IMG/VR virus record: IMGVR_UViG_3300031837_000051
Location: 1 to 25,797 of that record
DNA length: 25,797 bases
Source: a virus
Reading direction: 5' to 3' (one strand)
Shown: positions 2,705 through 20,874 of the stretch, piece by piece
How positions within the stretch are numbered: position 1 is the stretch's first letter
Layout: the number at the start of each line of letters is the position of its first letter
Translations under genes and position numbers: made by a program
Notes under the pieces: generated by a model
What the model was told of the DNA's origin: nothing
What the model saw: only the letters and a program-made list of their open reading frames with translations
Databases searched by the model: none

Positions 2705-4359
2705 TATCCGGGTGCCCCTGCCGCGTTCCGCGCGAGGTCAGCGTTGACGTGCTTCTGAGTACGCATGACGGAGCGCCCAGTTGCTTCGGGGTCCGAGCCG
2801 CCGGTGACGTGGATGTCGGTCTTCTGGTTGATCGAGACGCCGCGCGCCATCTTTTCATCGCCCAGGCGACGGTTCAGGAGCGTGGTGCTGATGGCGTCCG
2901 AGCCGCCGGGGTGGAATCCCCCCTTGCCATCGTGGTATCCACCGTATAGCTCGAACGCTCGGGCAGCTCCGTCCAAGTCCCCAGCACGAAGCTTCCGTAG
3001 CAATATGTGGGCACCGGCCAGGTTGCCCGAGTTGAACTGGTAATCCGTGAGGGCATCGCGCCATCCCTGAGAGAGATTCAGACCCTTCGTGAGCTTGGAA
3101 ACTACACCACCCGCCGCAGCCAGGTCGCTCTGGAACAATGCGTTTGCCTGCTCCGTCGTCAGGCTGCCGAAATGCTCCCCCGGCTTGAGCTTGTGGCCGT
3201 AGCCAATCGAAGCAGCGCCGCCCTCTAGAGAGCCGTACAACCGATGACGAAGCCCTTCCTTACTCTTCAGCCAGGAGACGAAACCCATGGCGGCCGTTCC
3301 TTCAGCTTGCCAGCCAGCCTTGCTCGTAGCCGCATGGAACACGCTCGCGACGCTGTGGGCCTCCCCGAACTTCTGCATCTTGTCCAGCGCGCCCGACTTC
3401 TTCAGCACCCAGGCGATGCCAAGGGCCGCCAGTACGCCCACGACGATGGGGACGACGAAGGGAATGACCGCCGCGCCGCCAGCGCCGCCCTCCGCCAGCT
3501 CGCCAGCGGCCGCTCCGCCGCGCAGTCCGATCGAGGTGCCGATCTTTCGCAGTCCCCAGCCCGTGACCTTCTTCGCCGCCCACCCGCCGCCCAACAGTCC
3601 AGCCAGGCCACCGAAGGCAGTGAGGTTCGGATGAGTCGTCATCACCCCCGCCACCACCGTCATCCCGCGCACCAGCTTGTCGACCAGAGGAAGGAACTTC
3701 GAGCCGATGATCTCCTTCAGAATGTCGACGTCATCTTCGAGGGTGTTGAGGTTGCGCTCGAACTCCACCGCCCGCTTGGCGTCGTCGTCCGGGTTCAGCC
3801 CGGCTTTCCGCATCCGGGCCTCGTGGGCCTTCTGCGCTTTGTCGTACTCGGGGAGGTTGTTGAGGACTTGGTTGGTGGTGTCCGAATCGAGGCCGAACTG
3901 CCCGGCTATCTGGAGGGCCATGTACCGCGGCATCTTGGCGATGCGGTGATAAAGGGCGCTCTGGGTGCGGGACGTATCCTGCCCCGGCTTGATGCCCAGA
4001 CCGCCCAAGAGACCGTTCAGCCCGGGATTCGACCGGATTGCCCGCGCCATGTTCTGAAGGCCAGCCGCAGCCGCATCCCCGCTCACGCCGACCGCCCGCG
4101 CGGCGAACTCCACCGTCTGCAGGTTCCGGACGCTGGTGTTCATTTGCTGGCTGGCGTAGGCCATCTTAGAGAAGTTGTCAGCCATGCCGACGACGTACTT
4201 ATCGACGGCGATGGAGACCAGCGCCACGCCCTCAGCGAAGCCGGCCAGCACCTTCTCGGTCTTCGCGATCGCCGTTTCCACGCGACGGAGCTGATTGTCG
4301 TCGACGTTGAAGCCGAGCTTGATCAGGTACTCTCGCAGAACGTTGGAGTTACTTGCCAT
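2704..4359 (-). CDS. Tail tape measure protein with C-terminal lysozyme (GH24-type) domain
   Basis: A 551-residue protein. Residues 1-230 are helical and heptad-rich (for example NLNTLEDDVDILKEIIG). Two hydrophobic segments follow, at about 245-260 (Gly-rich) and 296-319 (AAVIPFVVPIVVGVLAALGI), common in tape measures that become membrane-associated during DNA ejection. Residues about 360-505 resemble T4/endolysin-type muramidases: KEGLRHRLYG, then IGYGH and LTDYQFNSG. The catalytic Glu is present at 368. The Asp expected nine residues later is Ser377 (Glu379 is nearby) and the usual Thr is Ser384. The length is short for a tape measure, implying a short tail. It starts at the ATG at 4359, inside the frameshift extension of the chaperone gene. 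Confidence 0.88.
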   Translation of the reverse strand: MASNSNVLREYLIKLGFNVDDNQLRRVETAIAKTEKVLAGFAEGVALVSIAVDKYVVGMADNFSKMAYASQQMNTSVRNLQTVEFAARAVGVSGDAAAAGLQNMARAIRSNPGLNGLLGGLGIKPGQDTSRTQSALYHRIAKMPRYMALQIAGQFGLDSDTTNQVLNNLPEYDKAQKAHEARMRKAGLNPDDDAKRAVEFERNLNTLEDDVDILKEIIGSKFLPLVDKLVRGMTVVAGVMTTHPNLTAFGGLAGLLGGGWAAKKVTGWGLRKIGTSIGLRGGAAAGELAEGGAGGAAVIPFVVPIVVGVLAALGIAWVLKKSGALDKMQKFGEAHSVASVFHAATSKAGWQAEGTAAMGFVSWLKSKEGLRHRLYGSLEGGAASIGYGHKLKPGEHFGSLTTEQANALFQSDLAAAGGVVSKLTKGLNLSQGWRDALTDYQFNSGNLAGAHILLRKLRAGDLDGAARAFELYGGYHDGKGGFHPGGSDAISTTLLNRRLGDEKMARGVSINQKTDIHVTGGSDPEATGRSVMRTQKHVNADLARNAAGAPG

Positions 4360-4585
4360 TTAGACTCCTCGGCATCAGCCGGTCTTGATTCTCAGAGCGC
4401 ACGTCGAGCGCGTCGTTCATGCGAGCAATATCTTCAAGTGTAAGCGTGCCGTCTAGCAGGGACTCGTAGCGACACATCCCCTCCATCACGGGCCTCAGAA
4501 GGAAGTCGGTGCCGTCTCGAAGGTGAGCTAGTTTGACGCTGGAGCCGCCGCCCTTTAGACCTTCGGCAGCTCTGTAGGAAAAAAA
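4349..4585 (-). CDS. Tail assembly chaperone, -1 frameshift extension (gpGT-like product)
   Basis: This is the second frame of the chaperone gene. If ribosomes slip back one base on the T7 tract at 4579-4585, reading continues for 76 residues beginning SYRAAEGLKGGG and ending SLNGK before a TAA at 4349-4351. The extension has clear protein character, for example LAHLRDGTDFLLRPVMEGM, CRYESLLDGTLTLEDIARMN and DALDVRSENQ. It has no start codon or ribosome binding site of its own near the slip site. The full fusion would be 216 residues, 140 in frame 0 plus 76. Tail chaperones made as a short form and a frameshifted long form are well established (lambda gpG/gpGT). The frameshift itself is inferred. 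Confidence 0.8.
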   Translation of the reverse strand, partial: FFSYRAAEGLKGGGSSVKLAHLRDGTDFLLRPVMEGMCRYESLLDGTLTLEDIARMNDALDVRSENQDRLMPRSLNGK

Positions 4586-5029: not shown

Positions 5030-5497
5030 TTACCCAACCGAAATGATTGCCCCACCCATGGTCAGGGTTGCGCGAATCGCATAGAACTCCCATTCGATGA
5101 TGTTGGCGTCCTTCGCCCACAGGTTTGAGGGCTGCTTACCGAACGCCACACCAGAGGCGGTCATTGCGTCGCCGGTGACTGGATTCGACAGGGCCAGGGT
5201 GTTCTGACCCCAGAGAAGCGAAGAGGACGATTGCACCGCGAGTGCCTGCTGGAGCGCGGCATTCGTGGGGCTGGCCTTGAGGAAGCGCGCCATGATGCGA
5301 GCCGCCCGGTTCTGGATGAGGGAGTGCATGCCAGAGCCGTCCGCGCCGATGGTCATGCGCGTCCGCTCGTCGAGAGCTTCGAAGCTGATGCCCTCTTCCG
5401 CAGAGCCGGATCCGGTGCCGAGGACGATCGAGCAGGACGGCCCAAGGAGAAGCCCCTGCACATCTGCGAAAGAATAAGCTGCGAAAATCGGTTCCAC
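5030..5497 (-). CDS. Tail tube protein (DUF3277-like)
   Basis: A 155-residue protein directly after the sheath gene. It begins MEPIFAAYSFADVQGLLLGP and contains IVLGTGSGSAEEGISFEALD and the segment ARIMARFLKASPTNAALQQA. It ends with strand-rich IIEWEFYAIRATLTMGGAII. This pattern (N-terminal YSF-x-D-V, LL-KTSPTN-type helix) fits the DUF3277 tail-tube family found next to DUF3383 sheaths in AP22-like and KPP10-like phages. The tube would stack as rings inside the sheath. AGGAGAG lies about 8 bases upstream of the ATG. The family call is from recall. Confidence 0.85.
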   Translation of the reverse strand: MEPIFAAYSFADVQGLLLGPSCSIVLGTGSGSAEEGISFEALDERTRMTIGADGSGMHSLIQNRAARIMARFLKASPTNAALQQALAVQSSSSLLWGQNTLALSNPVTGDAMTASGVAFGKQPSNLWAKDANIIEWEFYAIRATLTMGGAIISVG

Positions 5498-5509
5498 GGG
5501 ACTCTCCTT

Positions 5510-7027
5510 TTACGGCTGCAGCGTTACCAGCACGCTGGTGGTGTTGACTGCGCCAGCGCAATTACCTGCGATCTGGATGGGGACTCCGACGCGGGCTGCA
5601 CGCGGAACCTGAGACTGGCTGGCAATCGGCGGCCCATAGATGTAGTAGCCATCCTCCATGTAGGGCTCGCCACCCACGGTGTTCGGCTGAAGCGTGCCGA
5701 AGGGAGCGCCGTACCAGTAGCCAGGCGCGAGGAAGCCGTTGGCGACGAATTGCTGGCAGACCTGCGCGTAATTCGTGATGAACTTGTGGGTGCCCGCGTC
5801 GTCCTGAGCAACCTTCGTCCCGGCGGTGGCGGCGGTGTAGAGGGTATTGAAGCCCGCAGCCTGAAGCGAGACGGCGAACACGTCGGCGCCGATCACTGTG
5901 TCCACGAAGTTGTTCGTGACGCAGGTCGTACCGGGGAAGAAGATCGGAACGCCGTTGTCGATCTGCGCGTAGACGTTGCAGTTCTTCGACTGAAGGATCG
6001 CGAGCTGACCGGACGTGATGTTCTCGGCCACGAGGGTCGGCATCGTCTGGTAGGCCAGCGAGATCATCGTATTGGTGCCCGAATAGTTGAGGTACAGGAT
6101 GCGCGCGAGGGCGGAGATCACCCCGCAAGAGTTGGTCGAGGAGTAGCTGACCATGCTCTTGTTGCAGGAGGTCTTCGACATCGTGTACGCGAGGTCGGTG
6201 GTGGAGCTCGACAGAAGGCACGCCGGCTCCTGCGACGTCGCCCCATAGAAGTGCTTCCGAGTCGAACCGCTCTGGATGAAGCCTTGGACTGCGAGGTGGT
6301 CCGCATCTGCGGTGATGGCCGGGTTGGCGAACGCATACCACTGGCCGCCGAAGTTGGCGTCCATGCGGGTGGCGTTCTGGAGCGCCGTCTCGGCCGCAAG
6401 CCCAGCCGATGTGTACGCTCCGGGGAAGGAAGCCGCCAGGCCGAGCAGGGAGCTGATGTCCGTCTCGCCGCCGCCGGTCGGGGTTGTCGCGAAGCTGACC
6501 GCGCTGGCTGCGCCCGTCGTTTCGCTCGTCAGCTCGAAGCGGGAATACACCTGATTCCAGACCACCGTTGCAACTCCAGCGAGCGCCGTGGCGATGAGCG
6601 CCGCGATGCCCGGCAGCGTGACAGCGCCGGTGAAGTTGATACCCGTGTGCTGCGTGACCGCGCCGCCGTTGACGGCCAGCCCAAAGGCTCCGTTGGCGAT
6701 GCCGGTGAAGTTCGAAAGAGCTTGCTGCGTGATGGAGAGGCCGCCGCCCAGGAGCTTCCCAGCCGTCGCGGATTCAGCCCAGCTCCCAATGAGGAGGCGG
6801 GGAGGAGTGGGAACCTGCGCGAAGTGGAGGAGGGCCGCCTGATACTCTAGGCCGCCGGTGCCCCAGTCACCAGCCACCGCCGCCGAGCTGGTATAGGTGC
6901 GGTAGCCCTGCGTCTGGTCGATCAGGGCGGTCGCGGTCACTACGAGGAGGTCGCTGGTGTCTTGACCCTGCCCGGCAGTCTGGGCCAGCGAGATCTGTAC
7001 GTCGATTAGAGTGCTCTCGTCGATCAT
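5510..7027 (-). CDS. Contractile tail sheath protein (DUF3383-like)
   Basis: A 505-residue protein whose size and position fit a contractile sheath. It begins MIDESTLIDVQISLAQTAG. It contains GTGGLEYQAALLHFAQVPTP, a segment where new subunits pair an 'oxidised' strand, and FGGQWYAFANPAITADADH. Later comes SGTNTMISLAYQTMPTLVAE, and near the C-terminus PGYWYGAPFGTL. This is the arrangement of the DUF3383 family, which supplies sheath proteins of AP22-like phages. The start makes an ATGA overlap with the upstream gene (stop at 7024). The tail tube gene follows 12 bases downstream. It is the clearest evidence that this is a contractile-tail phage. Confidence 0.88.
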   Translation of the reverse strand: MIDESTLIDVQISLAQTAGQGQDTSDLLVVTATALIDQTQGYRTYTSSAAVAGDWGTGGLEYQAALLHFAQVPTPPRLLIGSWAESATAGKLLGGGLSITQQALSNFTGIANGAFGLAVNGGAVTQHTGINFTGAVTLPGIAALIATALAGVATVVWNQVYSRFELTSETTGAASAVSFATTPTGGGETDISSLLGLAASFPGAYTSAGLAAETALQNATRMDANFGGQWYAFANPAITADADHLAVQGFIQSGSTRKHFYGATSQEPACLLSSSTTDLAYTMSKTSCNKSMVSYSSTNSCGVISALARILYLNYSGTNTMISLAYQTMPTLVAENITSGQLAILQSKNCNVYAQIDNGVPIFFPGTTCVTNNFVDTVIGADVFAVSLQAAGFNTLYTAATAGTKVAQDDAGTHKFITNYAQVCQQFVANGFLAPGYWYGAPFGTLQPNTVGGEPYMEDGYYIYGPPIASQSQVPRAARVGVPIQIAGNCAGAVNTTSVLVTLQP

Positions 7028-10659: not shown

Positions 10660-11730
10660 CTACAACCCATCAAAGTAGCCGACCGTTTCTGGGTAAGGCA
10701 TCTCGACAACGCCGAGCTTGCAGTAGTAGGTCGTGAGGTGATAAAGCCCACGATACTCGACCGGGGTGCGCTGCAGCATGGTCTTGGGGAAGCGCACGAA
10801 CCGCTTGTCCTTGGTGTAGACCGTTGCGCGGTCCACAGTGCCGGTCGTGCCGATCGTGCCGCCGACGCCTGCGCCAACTGCCCACTTGGTGGAGCGGATG
10901 GAGAGCCGTCCCTTGCCGTCCGCGGTGAGGAGGTTGTTCTCCTCGATATACCGCTTGATCGACATAAGGCCAGAAGCCGTCGCCACCTTCGCCGTCGCGA
11001 TGTAGCCGTACTGCGCGGGCGGGATGAGGATGTCGGTCGGGATGACTGCCCAGGCGGAAGCGGCCCAAACGGTCGTCAGCATGAAATTGAAGTCGTTCAG
11101 GATCTCGTCGGGGGACTTGCTCGCCCAGGTGGTGCCACCCTGCGCGCCCTGCGGGAGATTCGTGACCGTGGAGACCTTGCTGTTGTTCAACAGGCCGGTA
11201 TAGCCGAAGCCGGTGTCGCCGATGTAGACCTGCTCATCGGTGTCCATCTCGTGTTTGCGGCTCATCGCCTCGAACTTCTGCTGGTCGATCGGACGACCGA
11301 TCTTGGCAGACGCTTCGATCTCGGGGATCGTATAGCCCAGCTCGTTGGCCCAGAGGGTCAGCGGGTTGGCGATCTTCGCGATGTCCAGCGAGACGCCGGC
11401 AATCTGGTTGGCGTTCTTGCCAGCCCAGCTCTTGCCGTTGCCGATACCCTGTCCTGCACCGAGGCCGCCGTTCGAGAAGAACGTCGAGAGGGTGTAGGAG
11501 CTGGCGTCGTCCGCAATCGACACGTCCTCACGGGTGTCGATGTCGCGCGACCACTTGATATCGATGAGGGGCATGTTCAGCGTCATGTCGAGACGCTCCA
11601 GCTCTCCGAGGAAGAACGCGCCGGTGGAGTCCACGTAACGGCCGTCATGCGTCTGGGTCTTCTGGCCCAGCGGCTTGCCGAGTGCGTTGCCGTTGCTGTC
11701 GATTGTGCGCTGGCTGTCGAAGGTGAGCAT
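10660..11730 (-). CDS. Major capsid protein (DUF2184-like)
   Basis: A 356-residue protein. Supporting motifs are TGAFFLGELERLDMTLNMPL, then WSRDIDTREDVSIADDASSY, LGYTIPEIEASAKIGRPIDQ and KFEAMSRKHEMDTDEQVYIG. The C-terminal part includes AVIPTDILIPPAQYGYI. This is the order seen in the DUF2184 family of HK97-fold capsid proteins. The gene follows a Gp24-like cement gene, as expected. The start ATG at 11730 has GGGAG about 8 bases upstream, and the 88-base leader contains a CCGGGG/CCCCGG hairpin. No N-terminal scaffold domain is seen; scaffolding or protease function would come from the DUF2213-type gene. Confidence 0.88.
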   Translation of the reverse strand: MLTFDSQRTIDSNGNALGKPLGQKTQTHDGRYVDSTGAFFLGELERLDMTLNMPLIDIKWSRDIDTREDVSIADDASSYTLSTFFSNGGLGAGQGIGNGKSWAGKNANQIAGVSLDIAKIANPLTLWANELGYTIPEIEASAKIGRPIDQQKFEAMSRKHEMDTDEQVYIGDTGFGYTGLLNNSKVSTVTNLPQGAQGGTTWASKSPDEILNDFNFMLTTVWAASAWAVIPTDILIPPAQYGYIATAKVATASGLMSIKRYIEENNLLTADGKGRLSIRSTKWAVGAGVGGTIGTTGTVDRATVYTKDKRFVRFPKTMLQRTPVEYRGLYHLTTYYCKLGVVEMPYPETVGYFDGL

Positions 11731-11742
11731 TGCTTATTCTCC

Positions 11743-11759
11743 CGGAATCAATCTGGTGA
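11743..11759. repeat. 17-bp exact direct repeat, copy 1
   Basis: CGGAATCAATCTGGTGA occurs here, in the leader of the capsid gene, and again at 21873-21889. An exact 17-mer recurring in the same orientation is unlikely by chance in 26 kb. Its function is unknown. Confidence 0.5.
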
Positions 11760-11765
11760 TGCATA

Positions 11766-11782
11766 CCGGGGTGCCGCCCCGG
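11766..11782 (-). promoter_or_regulatory. Hairpin in capsid gene leader
   Basis: CCGGGG and CCCCGG flank a 5-base loop, giving a 6-bp GC-only stem in the leader between the Gp24-like gene and the capsid gene. No T tract follows, so it is not an intrinsic terminator. It may stabilise or mark a processed 5' end of capsid mRNA; this is inference. Confidence 0.4.
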
Positions 11783-11818
11783 CTCGGGTTAGAACGAAAG
11801 GTTGGTCGAGACCGCGCC

Positions 11819-12400
11819 TTAGATGTTGTAGGCGATCTCACCTACGCCGGTGGAATCAACGCCACCCTGATAGGTCGTAGTTGCGGGAAGTGCGAAGCCA
11901 GAACCGCCAGGGTTCGCCACTTCGAATCCCCCCTGTACGTGCGGGGCGGAAGAGGCGGCGGTCCAGATATACACGGTGCCACCCTTGACGGGCGTTCCGT
12001 TGATCTGGGCCATGATGTAGCCCGAGCGAAGGATGTTGGCAGCGCCGATGTCGATTCCGCCGGCTACGCCGAGGGCGACGTTCAGGCTTCCCGACCACTG
12101 CTGGAAGGGGTAGGTCCGGACGGTGATGCCGTAGATCGTGACGTCGCCTACAGTCAGGGGACGTACGCCCTGCGAGGTGGCGTCGATGATGACCGGCTGC
12201 CCGAAGACCGTCGGAGGATTCGCCGCGTCAATGAGCGTCGGCTCGATGGTGGGAGTGGGGTTGATCCGAGAGATCGTTCCCGGAACGCCAGCGCCCACGC
12301 GGTAGGTGATCGCGATGTCGCGAACCTTGTGACGCCCGAGGCGCTTGCCAGCAACGGGCTTTGTGCGGAAGGCTGCGAGAATCGAATCGAGGAAGGTCAT
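11819..12400 (-). CDS. Structural cement protein (Gp24-like)
   Basis: A 193-residue protein immediately before the capsid gene. Its N-terminus is basic and helical (MTFLDSILAAFRTKPVAGKR). The bulk is beta-rich and Gly/Thr-rich: DIGAANILRSGYIMAQINGT, KGGTVYIWTAASSAPHVQGG and VGEIAYNI at the end. The pattern S-GY-x-x-V-x-x-G-x-V-x-KG-x-VY-x-W resembles proteins named structural cement protein Gp24 that sit next to DUF2184 capsid genes. The likely role is capsid decoration or stabilisation. AAAGGGA precedes the ATG by 8 bases. Confidence 0.7.
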   Translation of the reverse strand: MTFLDSILAAFRTKPVAGKRLGRHKVRDIAITYRVGAGVPGTISRINPTPTIEPTLIDAANPPTVFGQPVIIDATSQGVRPLTVGDVTIYGITVRTYPFQQWSGSLNVALGVAGGIDIGAANILRSGYIMAQINGTPVKGGTVYIWTAASSAPHVQGGFEVANPGGSGFALPATTTYQGGVDSTGVGEIAYNI

Positions 12401-12463
12401 TGGAGAGTCCCTTTCGGTGCAAAGTCAGTGCTACGGTGCTGCGGTGAACTTCAGAGGCCCGAG

Positions 12464-13879
12464 CTAATTGCTCTCTTTCGCCCAGAAAGCGGCGGCCTTG
12501 GCATTGAACTCGGCGGGCGTGGTGGCCGGAGCGTTCAAGTCGAGAACTTTGGTCTTGCCATCATTCGTGCCACGATTGGCTTCGGAATGCTTGGCGGCAT
12601 CGTTCACCAGGCGCATCGTCGCGCCCACGCCGTTGAACAGGTTCCGAACCTCGCCACAGCTCAGGCCAGTGATCGAGTCCGCGGTGAAGACCTTGGAGCC
12701 AGCATGCTCGGCGACGATGACTGCACCCGCCGGGGTCATAGCTGCGATCCCCAGAGCCTTGCGGCGGAACTGGCAGATCTGATCCAGAGTCTTCTTGGGA
12801 GAGAGAGCGGCGTCGAGGGTCGGCTTCTTGATGCCAGGCGCGATGATCTCGGCGGTCGCGATGACCTCTTGGAAGCTGTCGACGAAGTGAGCGGAATCGC
12901 GGGCCTTGCGTGCGTCCTTGGTGCCGGTCTCCTTCTCCAGCTCCTCCTCCTCCGCATCCGTGACATCCTCGTCGCGGTGCTTCTTGTCGCGGGCCTCTTC
13001 CTTCTCTTCCAGATCCTTCACGCGCTTGTCGAAGGCTGCGAACTTGGCATCGTAGGCTTCGAATTTGGCGTCGAACGCGGCTGCATCTTCGGTGCCGCCC
13101 AGGTGGACATGAACGTCGCCACCCTCACCCTCGGCTGCATCCTCGACCTTCTCAAGCTCCGCATCGAGAGCCTTTTCCAACTCCTTCTCGTTCTCGGCGT
13201 CCTTGACGGGATCGCCGGTGGAGACGCGGGAGTCGCGGTAGCGCCGGATGATGCCAGCCTTGAGCGACTTGCGGACGGAATCGAATGTGAGAGTCTTCGT
13301 CTTTGCCACGGTGTTTCCTCCAAAGCCCTTTCGGGCGTGATCCCTAACCGCACACTGGGGGCCGCAGCGCCCAGCTTCTACAACTGCTACGTGGTTTCCC
13401 ACGATCTCGATCTGGTTACCTCGGCCGATGTCCGTCTCTTCATACTCGGCGTCGTAACCACAACTCACTTCGACCTTGCCAGCCAGAATCAGGTCGATCA
13501 TCTCTTGGTCCGTGATGAGCAGGTCAGCGATGAGGAGGTGGTCCTCGATGCCTTCCCCGCGTCGCGGGTCCAACACAGTCCCCTTGGCAAGCAGCGCCCA
13601 GGTTTCCGGTGTTACATCCTCCATGGGGTGGTCGTTTACGACCGGTTTCCCGTGGAAGCTCGCTATCGTGTCCGGGTGGAAAACGTCTTTCGCATCCCGG
13701 CTAACCCAAGCGATCCCGTCTGGCCCAACTTCTACTGGCGACTCGCCGGGGCCATAGAGCTGAACCCCAGTCCGTGCAATCGGTACATTACGGCAGAGAA
13801 GGAACCCTTCGGGCGTCTTCTCCTGATTTGGCCCCAGCTTCTCGACTGTGTAGAAGCGAGACTTTGCATCGCGTGACAT
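12464..13879 (-). CDS. DUF2213-like prohead protein (protease/scaffold candidate)
   Basis: A 471-residue protein. Residues 1-185 fit DUF2213: EGFLLCRNVPIARTGVQLYG near the start, FHGKPVVNDHP at about 74-84, VSCGYDAEYEETD and then NHVAVVEAGRCGPQCAVRD. The conserved His, Ser and Asp/Glu residues are compatible with a maturation protease fused to a scaffold, a role proposed for this family. Residues 215-340 are strongly acidic and coiled-coil-like (EEKEEARDKKHRDEDVTDAE), typical of internal scaffolds. The C-terminal part (340-471) looks folded and ends AAAFWAKESN. AAGGAG lies 7 bases before the ATG. Family recognition is good; protease activity is not shown. Confidence 0.8.
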   Translation of the reverse strand: MSRDAKSRFYTVEKLGPNQEKTPEGFLLCRNVPIARTGVQLYGPGESPVEVGPDGIAWVSRDAKDVFHPDTIASFHGKPVVNDHPMEDVTPETWALLAKGTVLDPRRGEGIEDHLLIADLLITDQEMIDLILAGKVEVSCGYDAEYEETDIGRGNQIEIVGNHVAVVEAGRCGPQCAVRDHARKGFGGNTVAKTKTLTFDSVRKSLKAGIIRRYRDSRVSTGDPVKDAENEKELEKALDAELEKVEDAAEGEGGDVHVHLGGTEDAAAFDAKFEAYDAKFAAFDKRVKDLEEKEEARDKKHRDEDVTDAEEEELEKETGTKDARKARDSAHFVDSFQEVIATAEIIAPGIKKPTLDAALSPKKTLDQICQFRRKALGIAAMTPAGAVIVAEHAGSKVFTADSITGLSCGEVRNLFNGVGATMRLVNDAAKHSEANRGTNDGKTKVLDLNAPATTPAEFNAKAAAFWAKESN

Positions 13880-17112: not shown

Positions 17113-17316
17113 TCACTGTGGATATCCGTCGATTTCAGCGGGAATCGAGATGCCGTCCTCATCGAGCGCGAGGACCACTTCCATCTCCAGCTCCATCGAC
17201 AGCCAGCGGCCACCGGAATCCCTCCCCGAGATCGGTTTGCAGTGGACCGCGACCAGCACTTCGACTCCCTGCTCAACGCGCAGTGCGAGGACGGTTTGAT
17301 CGGTGATTACAGCCAT
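17113..17316 (-). CDS. Small hypothetical protein
   Basis: A 67-residue acidic protein starting MAVITDQTVLALRVEQGVEV. The start at 17316 overlaps the MuF stop by 10 bases and has GGAGCC about 9 bases upstream. A longer reading frame to 17379 would begin inside the intein and was rejected. The sequence looks folded (VLVAVHCKPISGRDSGGRWL and ALDEDGISIPAEIDGYPQ). No family recognised. It is probably translated by coupling to MuF. Confidence 0.6.
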   Translation of the reverse strand: MAVITDQTVLALRVEQGVEVLVAVHCKPISGRDSGGRWLSMELEMEVVLALDEDGISIPAEIDGYPQ

Positions 17317-18914
17317 GGGATGTGAGGCTCCGGAAAGCAATTCCTTGATATGATATTCAAAGGCGTCACACCATACCATCCAGTCATTGAATTGAGGGTA
17401 AAAACATGAAGAGAGTCTTCACGCGAGATTTGATTCTCAAAGGGCAGAAACTTATAAGTTCGGGATTGAAAGTCAAAGACGCTGCTACCAGACTTGGCGT
17501 AAGCCCTGACACTCTCTCCAAAGAAGTCCGCAAACTTGGGACTATCATTCCGCATGGATTGCGTATTGGCGAAGGCAACGGACGAAAGAATCTCCCCTCC
17601 GAAGCTATCGCGGCGGCCTATATCGGAGGAAAGAGCGAACTCGCTCTCTCCAGAGAATATGGGGTCAACAGGCTCGCCATCACCCGGCGCCTCATAGAGC
17701 TCGGCGTCAAGAGGAGGAATCAAGGAGAAGCCATGCCTGGGTACGGGGAGAAGGAAATCGCCAACGCTCTTGCCGAGAAAGGCTTCCCTGTCGCGCTCCA
17801 GCATAAATTCAAGCGATACATGGTCGACATCTCCGCAGGGGATGTCGCCATAGAAATCCGCTTTTGCCTTCGGGGTACTTATGGCGCCTATTCGCACCGC
17901 TTCGAACAGATCCGCGAAGGATACAGATCTGTGATATTTATCGTGTTCGATCGGGCCGACTGGATCACCGAACGTCTGGACGACATAATCGCCCCTTTGC
18001 AGAGATTTTGCCGCCACCCAGCCCCTAGCGGTCAGTATGGGGTGGTTAGGTGTACAGTCAAACGAAACTCCAGCGACAGTTACTCGATGAATGTCACCGC
18101 GGAATGGCGCTCTCCAAAGAGCTCGAAGACCATCCTGAAGTCCTAAAAGCGTGCTCCCCACGACACATCTGCAATTTGGCCCTTGGCCGGCATGATAAAA
18201 CTGCGGCGCTCCTCCTTTGCCCACGCCCGCTGCAGGTGGTTCGTTCCATCGAATAAACTTTCCCTCAAGGGCGCGGTGCTGCGATCGAACATCACTGTCT
18301 TGAACCGTGCGCCAAAAATAGCCATCTGAGCCGATATGCCGGGCGCGCGTCTCCGTGAGCAGCGAGGCCGTGCGGGCTACCTCAGTCCGGGCAATCAGGC
18401 GCGCGCGGTTGACGCTGACCTTCCCGGAGTCAAGGATATCGCGCATGACGTCCTCGGCTCGCCGGCCTGAAACGATGGCTTCGCGGGTGAGCTGGTGGAC
18501 GCGGGCGCCAGCCTCAGCCGGGAGTGAGGTGATGAGCGTGACCTGCTCGGCCTGAAGCATCTTGAGGGTGCCGCCGATGGGGGCGGATTCGATGAGGCGG
18601 TGGAGGTTGGATCCGATCGACCGGCTCATGACCGTCCAGGCGTTCTTGTCCAGCACAGCGACTCGCGCTTGCATCTTCGCGGCCACCGCCGCAGCCCAAG
18701 GGCCCAGGAGGATGGAGTAGGAGTCCATGGCCTCAGTGAGCGCGGGAAGGTCGGTCACACGCCCAGCGTCGATGAAGCCCTTGATGATGACGCCAATCTG
18801 GCGACCGACGGCGGAGAGCTGGGTCTGGAACTCACGCTCGACGATGCGCGACCTCGAGAACTGGAGGCGGGCATTGCGCCGCGCGAGGGCGGCTTGCTGG
18901 CGTGCGGTCGGCAT
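17307..18914 (-). CDS. MuF-type minor head protein interrupted by an intein
   Basis: A 535-residue precursor. Residues 1-130 are helical. Residues about 135-250 form the MuF (SPP1 gp7-like) domain: ARLIARTEVARTASLLTETR, then FWRTVQDSDVRSQHRALEGK, FHAG-like YHAGQG and GPNCR. The conserved Cys-Arg-Cys site is split by a 276-residue intein (Cys250-Asn525). The exteins would rejoin as GPNCR-CFPEPHIPWL, leaving a 259-residue mature protein. MuF proteins lie beside the portal, enter the capsid and help DNA packaging or ejection. The gene follows portal and two small genes. Without splicing the protein would carry a large domain almost at its C-terminus. GAAGG precedes the ATG. Confidence 0.9.
   Translation of the reverse strand: MPTARQQAALARRNARLQFSRSRIVEREFQTQLSAVGRQIGVIIKGFIDAGRVTDLPALTEAMDSYSILLGPWAAAVAAKMQARVAVLDKNAWTVMSRSIGSNLHRLIESAPIGGTLKMLQAEQVTLITSLPAEAGARVHQLTREAIVSGRRAEDVMRDILDSGKVSVNRARLIARTEVARTASLLTETRARHIGSDGYFWRTVQDSDVRSQHRALEGKFIRWNEPPAAGVGKGGAPQFYHAGQGPNCRCVVGSTLLGLQDGLRALWRAPFRGDIHRVTVAGVSFDCTPNHPILTARGWVAAKSLQRGDYVVQTFGDPVGPIEHDKYHRSVSFADLFEAVRIGAISTPKAKADFYGDIPCGDVDHVSLEFMLERDREAFLGKSVGDFLLPVPRHGFSLIPPLDAELYEAPGDGEPVDPIFSGESEFALSSDIGRRDSFGGEILSSVAFANTQSMRNDSPKFADFFGESVRAYAKSGSSVFDFQSRTYKFLPFENQISREDSLHVFTLNSMTGWYGVTPLNIISRNCFPEPHIPWL
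17346..17354 (+). promoter_or_regulatory. Extended -10 promoter candidate for the antisense endonuclease
   Basis: TGATATGAT fits an extended -10 element (TG-n-TATGAT, five of six matches to TATAAT). There is no good -35, which extended -10 promoters can lack. Transcription would start near 17361, about 45 bases before the ATG at 17406. The element is read from the complement of intein codons 521-523 (Ile-Ile-Ser), just before the splice junction. Confidence 0.45.
17392..17398 (+). promoter_or_regulatory. Ribosome binding site of the antisense endonuclease
   Basis: TTGAGGG with GAGG 8 bases before the ATG at 17406. It supports genuine translation of the plus-strand frame. It lies opposite intein block F codons (Thr-Leu-Asn). 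Confidence 0.6.
17406..18146 (+). CDS. Putative homing endonuclease encoded antisense within the MuF intein
   Basis: A 246-residue protein, the only plus-strand gene accepted in the window. It lies entirely inside the intein coding region. Helix-turn-helix 1 is at about 11-45 (GLKVKDAATRLGVSPDTLSK). Helix-turn-helix 2 is at 65-103 (ALSREYGVNRLAITRRLIEL, ending GVKRRN). Residues 113-215 resemble Vsr/PD-(D/E)xK homing nucleases: a Glu in YGEKEI, then GFPVALQHKFKRYMVDI with Asp141, VAIEI with Glu150, and a strand REGYRSVIFIVFDR. It has a good Shine-Dalgarno and an extended -10 promoter candidate. Its codons are exactly complementary to those of the intein, a register in which chance long frames are common in GC-rich DNA. 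The domain order and lower GC argue that it is real. Nuclease activity is inferred. Confidence 0.82.
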   Translation: MKRVFTRDLILKGQKLISSGLKVKDAATRLGVSPDTLSKEVRKLGTIIPHGLRIGEGNGRKNLPSEAIAAAYIGGKSELALSREYGVNRLAITRRLIELGVKRRNQGEAMPGYGEKEIANALAEKGFPVALQHKFKRYMVDISAGDVAIEIRFCLRGTYGAYSHRFEQIREGYRSVIFIVFDRADWITERLDDIIAPLQRFCRHPAPSGQYGVVRCTVKRNSSDSYSMNVTAEWRSPKSSKTILKS

Positions 18915-19033: not shown

Positions 19034-19294
19034 TCACCCCTTGAACTTGACTCCGATAACTCGATAGCTCCTGTATACCACGCCCGCGTTCTCATCCTCG
19101 ACGGGCGGGTTGGCTATGCACTCATCGCAGTCACGTTGGGGCCGCGGATTGCTCTGGCTTTTGGGGATGCGGACGAATAGCCGACCGCACCCTTCGCAGG
19201 TCTTGATCTCCCGCGACTGGCTGGGAGCTTCCGGCGGTGGGGCGGGTGGCGCGTTGTGGAAGATGAGACGACTGCTAATGCAAGCCTTCCTCAC
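19034..19294 (-). CDS. Hypothetical zinc-ribbon-like protein
   Basis: An 86-residue protein with a GTG start at 19294 that overlaps the portal stop (GTGA). Residues about 32-60 contain CEGCGRLFVRIPKSQSNPRP and then CDECIANPP, two Cys-x2-Cys knuckles about 23 residues apart, a probable zinc ribbon. The N-terminal 25 residues are Pro/Ala-rich. Coupled translation after the portal suggests a head-assembly or DNA-related accessory role; nothing firmer can be said. Confidence 0.65.
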   Translation of the reverse strand: MRKACISSRLIFHNAPPAPPPEAPSQSREIKTCEGCGRLFVRIPKSQSNPRPQRDCDECIANPPVEDENAGVVYRSYRVIGVKFKG

Positions 19295-20787
19295 TTCTTC
19301 GCGCCTCCTGCTACGGCCGGATTGGCCGCTGGATCGGGTTCAATCGGGTCGCCATGGTTCACCTCGGCAACCGCGACCTTCTCCGGCGTCGGCGCCAGCA
19401 TCAACGCCTCTGCCTCGGCGATGTCCTCGTCGCGGATGTTCGTTCCACGCCCAGTGACCTGGGAGGACTGCTTCATCTCGCGCAGGGCGATGGGCGGCGT
19501 GTAGACTCCCGCCTCCATAAGGCTGACGACGGTCTGAGCATCTTTCGCGGCAACCTCGGACTTCTCGATCTCGTCGAGCTGCCAGAGTGGCCGGAACTTG
19601 ATGCCCCAACCCTTCGGGAGCGTGATCCCCTCAGAGAGCGCGATCGCACGATACACGTTCGTCATGGGCTGCAGAAGGTGAAGCATCTGCTGCTGGAAGA
19701 TCGTGTCGTAGTAGAGGCGCATGTCGGAGTCGCCAGTGGAGTTGAGGCCGGCGGGTGACTGGCCGAAGAGGCGCACCAGCGGAATCCCGAGCGCGCCGCT
19801 GATCTGCTGCCCGAAATGGATGAGGGCTTCAGCCAGGCCAGAGAACGCGGTCGCTCCATGCTCTGTGTACTCATCCTCGCCGTCCAGGAGAGTGATGCCC
19901 TCGGAGACTTGGAACATCCGCATCCACTCGACGAACTTGGCGACGCCGTTCATCGACGAGCCACCTTCAGCGATGATGCCGCGGAGGCCCGGAATCTTGA
20001 TCACCCGGAGATAGGCCTTATAGACGAGCTGGGCAGCGCCTAGCGTTGCCGAGTCGAAGGCAACCATCCGGTCGTAGATGCGCTCATAAACAGAAGTCGT
20101 CCACAGGTTCTCCATGAGGCGTTGCTGGTACGGGATGTCGGTCCCTTCCATCCGGATCACTCGCGAATAGTGAACCTTTTGGAGCCTCAGAGCAGGAGCG
20201 TTCGATCCGATGGTGTAGAACTTTGGCTGGCCTAGATGCGGCCCTTCCTCGGTGACGAGATCGTTGAGGGAGGGCTCCACCATCCACCGATCCACCACCA
20301 GCAGTCCCTTGTACTGATCCTTCCCGATTGCTGTCGGATCCCACGGTGTCGAATAGTTCTGGCCCTTCACCAGATTGATCCCCAGGCCGCCGCCGTATAG
20401 CCGGCCCCACTTGACCGCGCTGTTCACCTTGCCCCAGACGTTCAGGCGGGTTGCTGCCTCTTCCAGCTTCTCAGCCTCGGCTGGCTTCAGCTCGCCCTTG
20501 AACTCCACCCCGGCGCGCGTCATGTCGTCCGCGATAATATCCACAGCCAGGCCAGCAATAAAGTTGCCACGGTGCATCCACTCCAGCATCGTCCGGTCGC
20601 GCGTGATGGGGTTGAACCCATAGTTCGCCGCGCTGCTGACGTTGTTGGTGCCGATCCCCGTCTGGGTCGCGAAGTTCTGAAAGCTGTCCTTTGCACCGGT
20701 TTTCGCGGTTTTCGCCCGGTCCTTGACAACTTTCTTCTCCGCCGCCTTCGCCGAGCGCGCTGCGCCAGCCACACTTACTTTACCCAC
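19291..20787 (-). CDS. Portal protein (DUF1073/Phage_portal_3-like)
   Basis: A 498-residue protein with a GTG start at 20787; GAGG lies 8 bases upstream, which decides the start over an upstream ATG. Motifs are NFIAGLAVDIIADDMTRAGV, then WGRLYGGGLGINLVKGQNYS, VVDRWMVEPSLNDLV and PALRLQKVHYSRVIRMEGTD. Next come QISGALGIPLVRLFGQSPAG and LNSTGDSDMRLYYDTIFQQQ. These are hallmarks of DUF1073 portals (some databases also name them Acb1-like because a related domain is fused in other phages; no such domain is seen here). It would form the dodecameric DNA channel. MuF and neck genes follow as expected. Confidence 0.92.
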   Translation of the reverse strand: MGKVSVAGAARSAKAAEKKVVKDRAKTAKTGAKDSFQNFATQTGIGTNNVSSAANYGFNPITRDRTMLEWMHRGNFIAGLAVDIIADDMTRAGVEFKGELKPAEAEKLEEAATRLNVWGKVNSAVKWGRLYGGGLGINLVKGQNYSTPWDPTAIGKDQYKGLLVVDRWMVEPSLNDLVTEEGPHLGQPKFYTIGSNAPALRLQKVHYSRVIRMEGTDIPYQQRLMENLWTTSVYERIYDRMVAFDSATLGAAQLVYKAYLRVIKIPGLRGIIAEGGSSMNGVAKFVEWMRMFQVSEGITLLDGEDEYTEHGATAFSGLAEALIHFGQQISGALGIPLVRLFGQSPAGLNSTGDSDMRLYYDTIFQQQMLHLLQPMTNVYRAIALSEGITLPKGWGIKFRPLWQLDEIEKSEVAAKDAQTVVSLMEAGVYTPPIALREMKQSSQVTGRGTNIRDEDIAEAEALMLAPTPEKVAVAEVNHGDPIEPDPAANPAVAGGAKK

Positions 20788-20874
20788 AGGGTCCGCCTCA
20801 CTATTGGAGCAACAATGTGAGGACGTTACCACGCGAATCCAGAGAGTACACCCTACCTTTGCCCATAGGAATAG

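Follow-up and report, generated by a model that had tools for sequence, protein, structure and literature searches.

A phage MuF intein with a Vsr-like nuclease gene on its opposite strand, and its family of probable two-strand mobile inteins

The window analysed here, 25,797 nucleotides of IMG/VR virus record IMGVR_UViG_3300031837_000051, carries in its MuF-like minor head protein gene an intein whose opposite strand encodes a protein with two helix-turn-helix (HTH) domains and a Vsr-like nuclease domain. With a probability of about 0.92, we interpret this element as a two-strand mobile intein, in which the minus strand encodes a Hint splicing domain and the plus strand encodes a separate homing endonuclease. 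Both reading frames are open and conserved across a large family, the plus-strand protein belongs to a nuclease family and has its own translation signals, and in relatives the element is precisely inserted and has recently spread laterally. The features of the window copy are as follows.

17307-18914, minus strand: MuF-like minor head protein precursor, interrupted by the intein (535 aa; Pfam Phage_Mu_F, 1.5e-17; phrog_324, head morphogenesis, 1.8e-51)
17340-18167, minus strand: intein in MuF (276 residues; Cys1 in CVVGSTLL, block B TPNHPILT, C-terminal Asn276, +1 Cys)
17958-18167, minus strand: N-terminal Hint splicing block, intein residues 1-70 (AlphaFold pLDDT 80-98)
17466-17957, minus strand: intein middle, residues 71-234, sense frame (pLDDT mostly 32-64 from residue 120)
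17340-17465, minus strand: C-terminal Hint splicing block, intein residues 235-276 (AlphaFold pLDDT 90-98)
17346-17354, plus strand: extended -10 candidate TGaTATGAT (7 of 8 positions match)
17394-17398, plus strand: Shine-Dalgarno sequence GAGGG, 7 nt 5' of the ATG at 17406
17406-18146, plus strand: predicted antisense homing endonuclease gene, HTH-HTH-Vsr-like nuclease (ATG start; 246 aa plus stop; from homology, domains and fold)
17424-17534, plus strand: first helix-turn-helix, residues 7-43 (Pfam HTH_23, 0.003; helices 7-18, 23-30 and 34-43)
17598-17699, plus strand: second helix-turn-helix, residues 65-98 (helices 65-73, 78-85 and 89-98; resolvase-type HTH in the family)
17733-18113, plus strand: Vsr-like nuclease fold, residues 110-236 (VIA-align to Vsr; conserved acidic residues)
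17748-17750, 17826-17828 and 17853-17855, plus strand: putative catalytic residues E115, D141 and E150, respectively (from the family alignment)

A preliminary description of the sequence had placed a 276-residue intein on the minus strand of the MuF gene, and its coordinates are exact. The splice motifs are all present, with the Cys1 codon at 18165-18167, the last Asn codon at 17340-17342 and the +1 Cys codon at 17337-17339. A nucleophilic residue 1, block B TxxH, a C-terminal Asn and the +1 Cys identify the element as an intein by sequence. The predicted joined MuF extein comprises about 259 aa with the junction GPNCR-CFPEPHIPWL, and the MuF gene adjoins the portal gene at 19291-20832. The Pfam Intein_splicing model matches the window copy at 9.7e-4 and 54 of 57 family inteins, up to 4.5e-13, and a profile of the family reaches solved inteins at 2e-11. 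Within the 57-member alignment, C1 and N276 are invariant and TxNH is present in at least 90%. The residue preceding Asn276 in the window intein is Arg; in inteins this position is usually occupied by His. AlphaFold modeled residues 1-70 and 235-276 of the window intein confidently and most of residues 120-235 poorly, and no Pfam family matched the sense middle of the intein in the family members. As modeled, the sense middle looks like an open, mostly unstructured passenger of the opposite gene.

The gene 3' of MuF (17113-17379, minus strand) overlaps the 3' end of MuF and has no family match. Its listed ATG at 17379 lies inside the intein, and the ATG at 17316 is a likelier start. Among Salmonella phages, the MuF genes of MT677934.1, MZ560703.1, OQ507916.1 and NC_073179.1 are annotated as NAD+--asparagine ADP-ribosyltransferase, and some of them contain this intein.

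The plus-strand open reading frame (ORF) of 741 bp lies fully within the intein and leaves only intein residues 1-7 and 255-276 outside, in exact agreement with the extent given initially (all but the first 7 and the last 22 residues). Its codon position 1 is opposite sense position 3, and the codons of the two strands are exact reverse complements. From the local use of Leu and Ser codons, 2.9 antisense stops would be expected, and the probability of finding none is 0.049. Longer antisense ORFs of 733, 539 and 399 aa are found elsewhere in the window, so ORF length is no evidence here and the case rests on relatives. These three plus-strand frames (11675-13876, 5231-6850 and 3244-4443, respectively) are located opposite minus-strand genes and look like ordinary GC-rich antisense frames.

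The AlphaFold model of the plus-strand protein (mean pLDDT 86.5) consists of two HTH units and an alpha/beta domain. Alignment of the nuclease domain with VIA-align gave Vsr (1cw0; Z 9.8, 109 residues aligned, 2.6 Å), followed by 3hrl (Z 8.8) and I-Bth0305I (3r3p; Z 7.9); Foldseek alone placed 3hrl at rank 14 (E 0.09), and the clear order came from VIA-align. When a profile of 59 family members was compared with solved structures, it matched 3hrl at 2.8e-6 and the catalytic domain of I-Bth0305I (3r3p) at 1.2e-4. Pfam MTES_1575 matches 33 of the 59 members (best 1.4e-8) and DUF559 matches eight, while HTH models match about half (best 8.9e-12). Searched by itself with phmmer and Pfam, the window protein gave weak HTH matches and did not reach the nuclease models; its nuclease assignment comes via the family alignment and the structural model. 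The preliminary description had read two HTH segments and a Vsr/PD-(D/E)xK-like core from the sequence and had regarded the lack of any nuclease in profile searches as grounds for giving the idea up. With family alignments, both the nuclease and the HTH domains were found, the former through the matches to 3hrl, I-Bth0305I and MTES_1575.

D141 and E150 are invariant and E115 is nearly so among the 59 sequences, and the frame, the start, the Shine-Dalgarno sequence and residues E115, D141, E150 and R165 are all intact in the window copy. Fold and profile matches place the protein in the Vsr-like nuclease superfamily (PD-(D/E)xK; MTES_1575/DUF559, Vsr). In the 59 sequences, no conserved His-x-Asp follows E150. 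The His and Asp that complete the EDxHD set are missing from its E-D-E set, so the nuclease is named Vsr-like here and is not classed among the EDxHD enzymes.

To place the window copy among its relatives, we searched for homologues of the plus-strand protein. A tblastn search with the window protein reached 24 phage records, including matches antisense inside the MuF genes of Vibrio, Klebsiella, Edwardsiella, Idiomarinaceae, Gordonia and Rctr197k phages at 24-27% identity, where the matched antisense frames are open over 286-321 codons. Searches with the antisense proteins of two relatives returned 104 and 132 records and extended to Jerseyvirus and Kagunavirus (Salmonella and Escherichia), Aaphi23, a Helicobacter prophage and Pseudomonas phages. 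Homologues of the plus-strand protein, whose absence would have counted against the gene, are thus present in considerably more than 100 phage records and at roughly 190 loci of IMG/VR. IMG/VR scans contributed 187 loci and a genome scan three, and a total of 191 loci were examined. The sense register frame is open across the match in 188 of them. Conservation of the plus-strand frame in other MuF inteins, named beforehand as a check, is borne out, with 179 of the 191 antisense frames stop-free; the other 12 contain a single stop each, the pattern to be expected of endonucleases in decay, and most of these loci have an intact intein. We located both splice junctions in 134 non-redundant inteins, whose lengths cluster near 272 and 322.

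Matches from Caulobacter and human gut at E 0.1 looked HTH-only or unrelated and were dropped. The plasmid-classed record NZ_LN890657.1 (Candidatus Promineifilum breve) has a nuclease match at 26788-27360 over a phage minor head gene and is probably a phage or prophage. Two IMG/VR loci (L200 and L065) hold nuclease relatives with several stops in the opposite register frame, which may be free-standing; L200 retains the HTH and MTES_1575 domains.

Since these loci were first found with the antisense protein, we performed a control search of IMG/VR that used the sense-frame splicing block only (70-residue Hint N block). Among the best 80 loci (65 non-redundant) of at least 477 relatives, the nuclease profile matches all 65 non-redundant inteins in antisense orientation, and no sense-strand match occurs. 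As best matches were used, this result says that the nuclease typifies this intein family, not all viral inteins. The same-frame endonuclease of canonical bifunctional inteins was found in none of the 65, and the rarity implied by the preliminary description does not hold, as an antisense nuclease is what members of this large intein family normally carry. Mantel comparisons of the sense Hint blocks with the antisense HTH and nuclease regions in 57 members gave r values of 0.29 and 0.57, respectively (P 0.001). The correlated distances indicate that the splicing and nuclease genes mostly travel together, while the HTH part diverges more freely. An eight-row alignment and a sense alignment were too diverse for a scan of the collection.

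Across the family, selection acts on both strands of the element. TTA, CTA and TCA codons opposite the antisense frame are entirely missing from 19 inteins, against up to 21.7 expected. The expected numbers of antisense stops are 21.7 for Vibrio 1.113.A (P 2e-12), 19.4 for PvVp04 (P 9e-11) and, at 34% GC, 15.3 for the Helicobacter prophage (P 1e-9), and across relatives the openness is retained at 34-45% GC. Substitution patterns differ between the parts of the gene. In the exact register seen here, sense position 1 is the wobble position of the antisense codon. In close pairs, the ratio of differences at sense positions 1 and 3 is 0.1-0.6 in the exteins and 1.4-4.8 in the intein middles, a flip with Fisher P values from 1.9e-12 to 2.9e-5. 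For LSPA1 and LLsp9, position 1:3 differences are 77:206 in the exteins versus 70:34 in the middle (Fisher P 1.9e-12), and for Angelicage and Vivi2 they are 8:73 versus 50:34 (P 7e-12). Differences in the C-terminal Hint block of close pairs lie mostly at sense position 3, as in the exteins. These P values cover pairs or counts, and the loci share descent, with no correction for phylogeny.

In distant pairs, the antisense proteins are more similar than expected from the sense proteins, and the converse also holds; codon-shuffle scores of close pairs are inflated by shared descent and were set aside, so that distant pairs alone count. Constraint is split along the element: the sense frame governs the Hint ends, and the nuclease frame governs the middle, where the sense protein amounts to hardly more than an open spacer. 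The objection that conservation of the plus-strand frame might be explained entirely by constraint on the intein therefore fails, because in the middle of the intein constraint falls on the antisense frame. The two proteins also shadow each other, with the sense TPNHP opposite the antisense VIRG and the antisense VAVE opposite the sense FHGD.

The start signals of the nuclease gene are embedded in the splicing block. Its ATG lies opposite, as the complement, a His codon in the Hint motif HVYNL, and this His is encoded by CAT, which makes the ATG, in 87% of cases versus a background of 37% (P=2e-25). The Leu of the same motif is encoded by CTC, which makes GGAGG just before the ATG, in 79% versus 24% (P=9e-35). 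Shine-Dalgarno matches of at least 5 occur in 67% of the family, compared with 18% after synonymous resampling. The ribosome-binding site candidate named beforehand is accordingly supported by codon selection throughout the family as well as by the GAGGG of the window itself.

For transcription, the family has a consensus TGTGnTATAAT about 54 nt before the ATG, opposite the last intein residues. Exact TGnTATAAT occurs in 18% versus 0.6% after synonymous resampling, and 34 of 40 strong -10 sites are found at the same place, -54. The signal is strong in Guernseyvirinae, in Vibrio 1.113.A and in numerous metagenomic loci; in other members, such as Gordonia phages, it is weak or missing. The promoter suggested for the window copy fared less clearly. 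A sigma-70 scanner found no plus-strand promoter for the nuclease gene in the window, probably due to an extended -10 element without a -35 match, while the extended -10 candidate lies near the family consensus position; synonymous resampling reaches its 7/8 match in 7% of cases.

Evidence for mobility comes from relatives of the window copy. In an alignment of two such relatives, phage K1ind2 has a precise empty site that matches the flanks of Snoke base for base; the empty site is stated in PMC6776784, which reports the intein and no antisense gene. The insertion is open in its host frame in the 188 loci above, and K1ind2 provides an intein-less allele with a precise junction. The inteins of Snoke (Kagunavirus) and LSPA1 (Jerseyvirus) are 97.4% identical, with flanks at 78-95%, and those of LSPA1 and BPS11Q3 are 94.9% identical, with the upstream extein at 65-72%. 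Within Guernseyvirinae, the MuF gene is present in 486 records, and about 70 Salmonella and Escherichia records appeared in the antisense-protein searches.

Two-strand inteins of the family are also inserted in a uracil-DNA glycosylase gene (locus L191, 2917-3732) and a large terminase gene (L195). A further one (L215) lies inside another, unassigned protein. In Escherichia phage BEU35 (L030), a related two-strand intein occupies a second MuF site upstream of CRARDG, and the usual HPN|CRS site is left uninterrupted. Acinetobacter Obolenskvirus genomes (L012, 455-1348; L033, 2453-3346) have a free-standing nuclease relative, convergent with an intein-less MuF. The strand opposite this gene is full of stops, which makes it a natural control, and it is perhaps the ancestral state.

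Other explanations of the plus-strand frame were weighed against this evidence. Frames in this register stay open in GC-rich genes, where TTA, CTA and TCA are rare, and a chance ORF would be compatible with the openness of the window copy alone (P about 0.05) and with the longer antisense ORFs nearby. It is contradicted by frames kept open at 34-45% GC (P as low as 2e-12), by the nuclease and HTH homology, by the inverted substitution periodicity and by the codon choice that builds the Shine-Dalgarno sequence and the ATG. For the family, chance is already refuted, and we give it next to no credence. It is also barely tenable that the frame is conserved only because it mirrors a functional domain encoded by the sense frame of the intein middle, such as a degenerate in-frame endonuclease. 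The conserved sense stretch FHGD..E(V/I)(D/E)VV might indicate such a domain, but it is the reverse complement of the antisense active site YNxDFxVGxVAVE. Moreover, the sense middle has no family match and low model confidence and is most variable at its own codon position 1, and the relative in Acinetobacter phages stands free with stops throughout its opposite strand.

A real antisense protein might instead have a role other than homing, either in regulating MuF and head assembly or as an HTH transcription factor. Its two HTH domains and its position antisense to a late structural gene are in line with such a role, and homing cleavage is itself a prediction. Nevertheless, we consider this role very unlikely in view of the complete nuclease core with invariant acidic residues, the sporadic occurrence in Guernseyvirinae (486 MuF records versus about 70 matched), the far greater similarity between phages of the intein than of the exteins, and the further host genes for uracil-DNA glycosylase and terminase. 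Finally, the family may be as described while the nuclease of the window copy is undergoing decay within an intein that has become fixed. The window differs from three near-identical contigs by two SNPs, both silent in the intein and both changing the nuclease (R83G and S240P). Because both known SNPs alter the nuclease only, constraint on the window copy may have relaxed, and the 12 of 191 relatives with a stop in the nuclease frame, most of them intein-intact, illustrate such decay. Against this stand the intact frame, start, Shine-Dalgarno sequence and E115/D141/E150/R165 of the window copy, and we judge decay to be unlikely here, though a real possibility.

As a two-strand mobile intein, the element would work as follows. 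The minus-strand Hint domain would excise itself from the MuF head protein, as splicing of the precursor is predicted from its motifs. The plus-strand enzyme would be made from its own ribosome-binding site and is probably transcribed from its own extended -10 promoter within the last intein codons. It is predicted to cut intein-less MuF at the conserved (H/G)PNCRC codons, upon which repair would copy in the whole element. The insertion would destroy the enzyme's own site and so protect the filled allele. Independent transcription would allow the enzyme to be made while the late head genes are off, and antisense transcription could possibly tune MuF expression, as had been suggested.

Antisense homing endonuclease genes, thus with their own promoter, are known from nuclear group I introns, which share with the present element a homing gene opposite the strand of the host gene. 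In contrast, an intron need not code for protein, so that there is no double coding, while the intein must stay open on both strands. Canonical bifunctional inteins (PI-SceI; in-frame LAGLIDADG or HNH) likewise have the endonuclease between the Hint N and C blocks and interrupt essential genes at conserved motifs; in the present family, the endonuclease is instead encoded by the other strand, is translated independently and overlaps both the interval between the Hint blocks and the blocks themselves. Vsr-like homing endonucleases such as I-Bth0305I (EDxHD) are also phage-borne, associated with inteins or introns, and combine a Vsr-like nuclease with DNA-binding modules, but the active site here is E-D-E as in MTES_1575/DUF559, not E-D-x-H-D.

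The fractured-gene arrangement of split inteins with a nuclease (Dassa et al. 2009, cited in PMC10448857) differs in that the nuclease here is antisense within a contiguous intein and not between split-intein genes. ShiLan (Arsenault, Gosselin and Gogarten, Genes 2025; PMC11855218) hides an HNH nuclease on the same strand and lacks a splicing domain. It shares with our family a phage insertion that is open in the host frame and encodes a homing nuclease in another frame, whereas in our family the nuclease is Vsr-like and lies antisense to a host frame that encodes a genuine intein with a splicing domain. For overlapping frames in actinophages, the same paper cites a 2025 preprint by Gosselin, Arsenault and Gogarten on actinobacteriophage inteins of non-canonical architecture (bioRxiv, 10.1101/2025.01.02.630785) and Gorbalenya 1998 (Non-canonical inteins); judging by this citation, the Gordonia MuF inteins would fall within such an actinophage intein survey. 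The literature searched, which included few preprints or subscription journals, contained no described case of an antisense or opposite-strand endonuclease in an intein, and with this reserve we consider the arrangement newly described.

On balance, we favor the view that the family represents an undescribed intein class of apparently single origin, defined by a splicing domain and a nuclease on opposite strands in register, with the nuclease signals within the splicing block. If so, a single-origin class would span hundreds of phages of many hosts and would provide an unusually long and widespread case of antisense double coding that is open to comparative testing. The family offers hundreds of natural replicates of extreme double coding, in which splicing motifs and active site shadow each other. 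In the established view, the endonuclease of an intein lies in the same frame, and the nuclease is produced only together with the host protein. The two-strand family would uncouple the nuclease from its host, so that it could be expressed earlier than the late head gene or independently of it. The family would also account for the many MuF inteins of 270 and 320 residues whose middle has no recognised function, and it brings to light nucleases that had gone unannotated in phages as well studied as Jerseyvirus.
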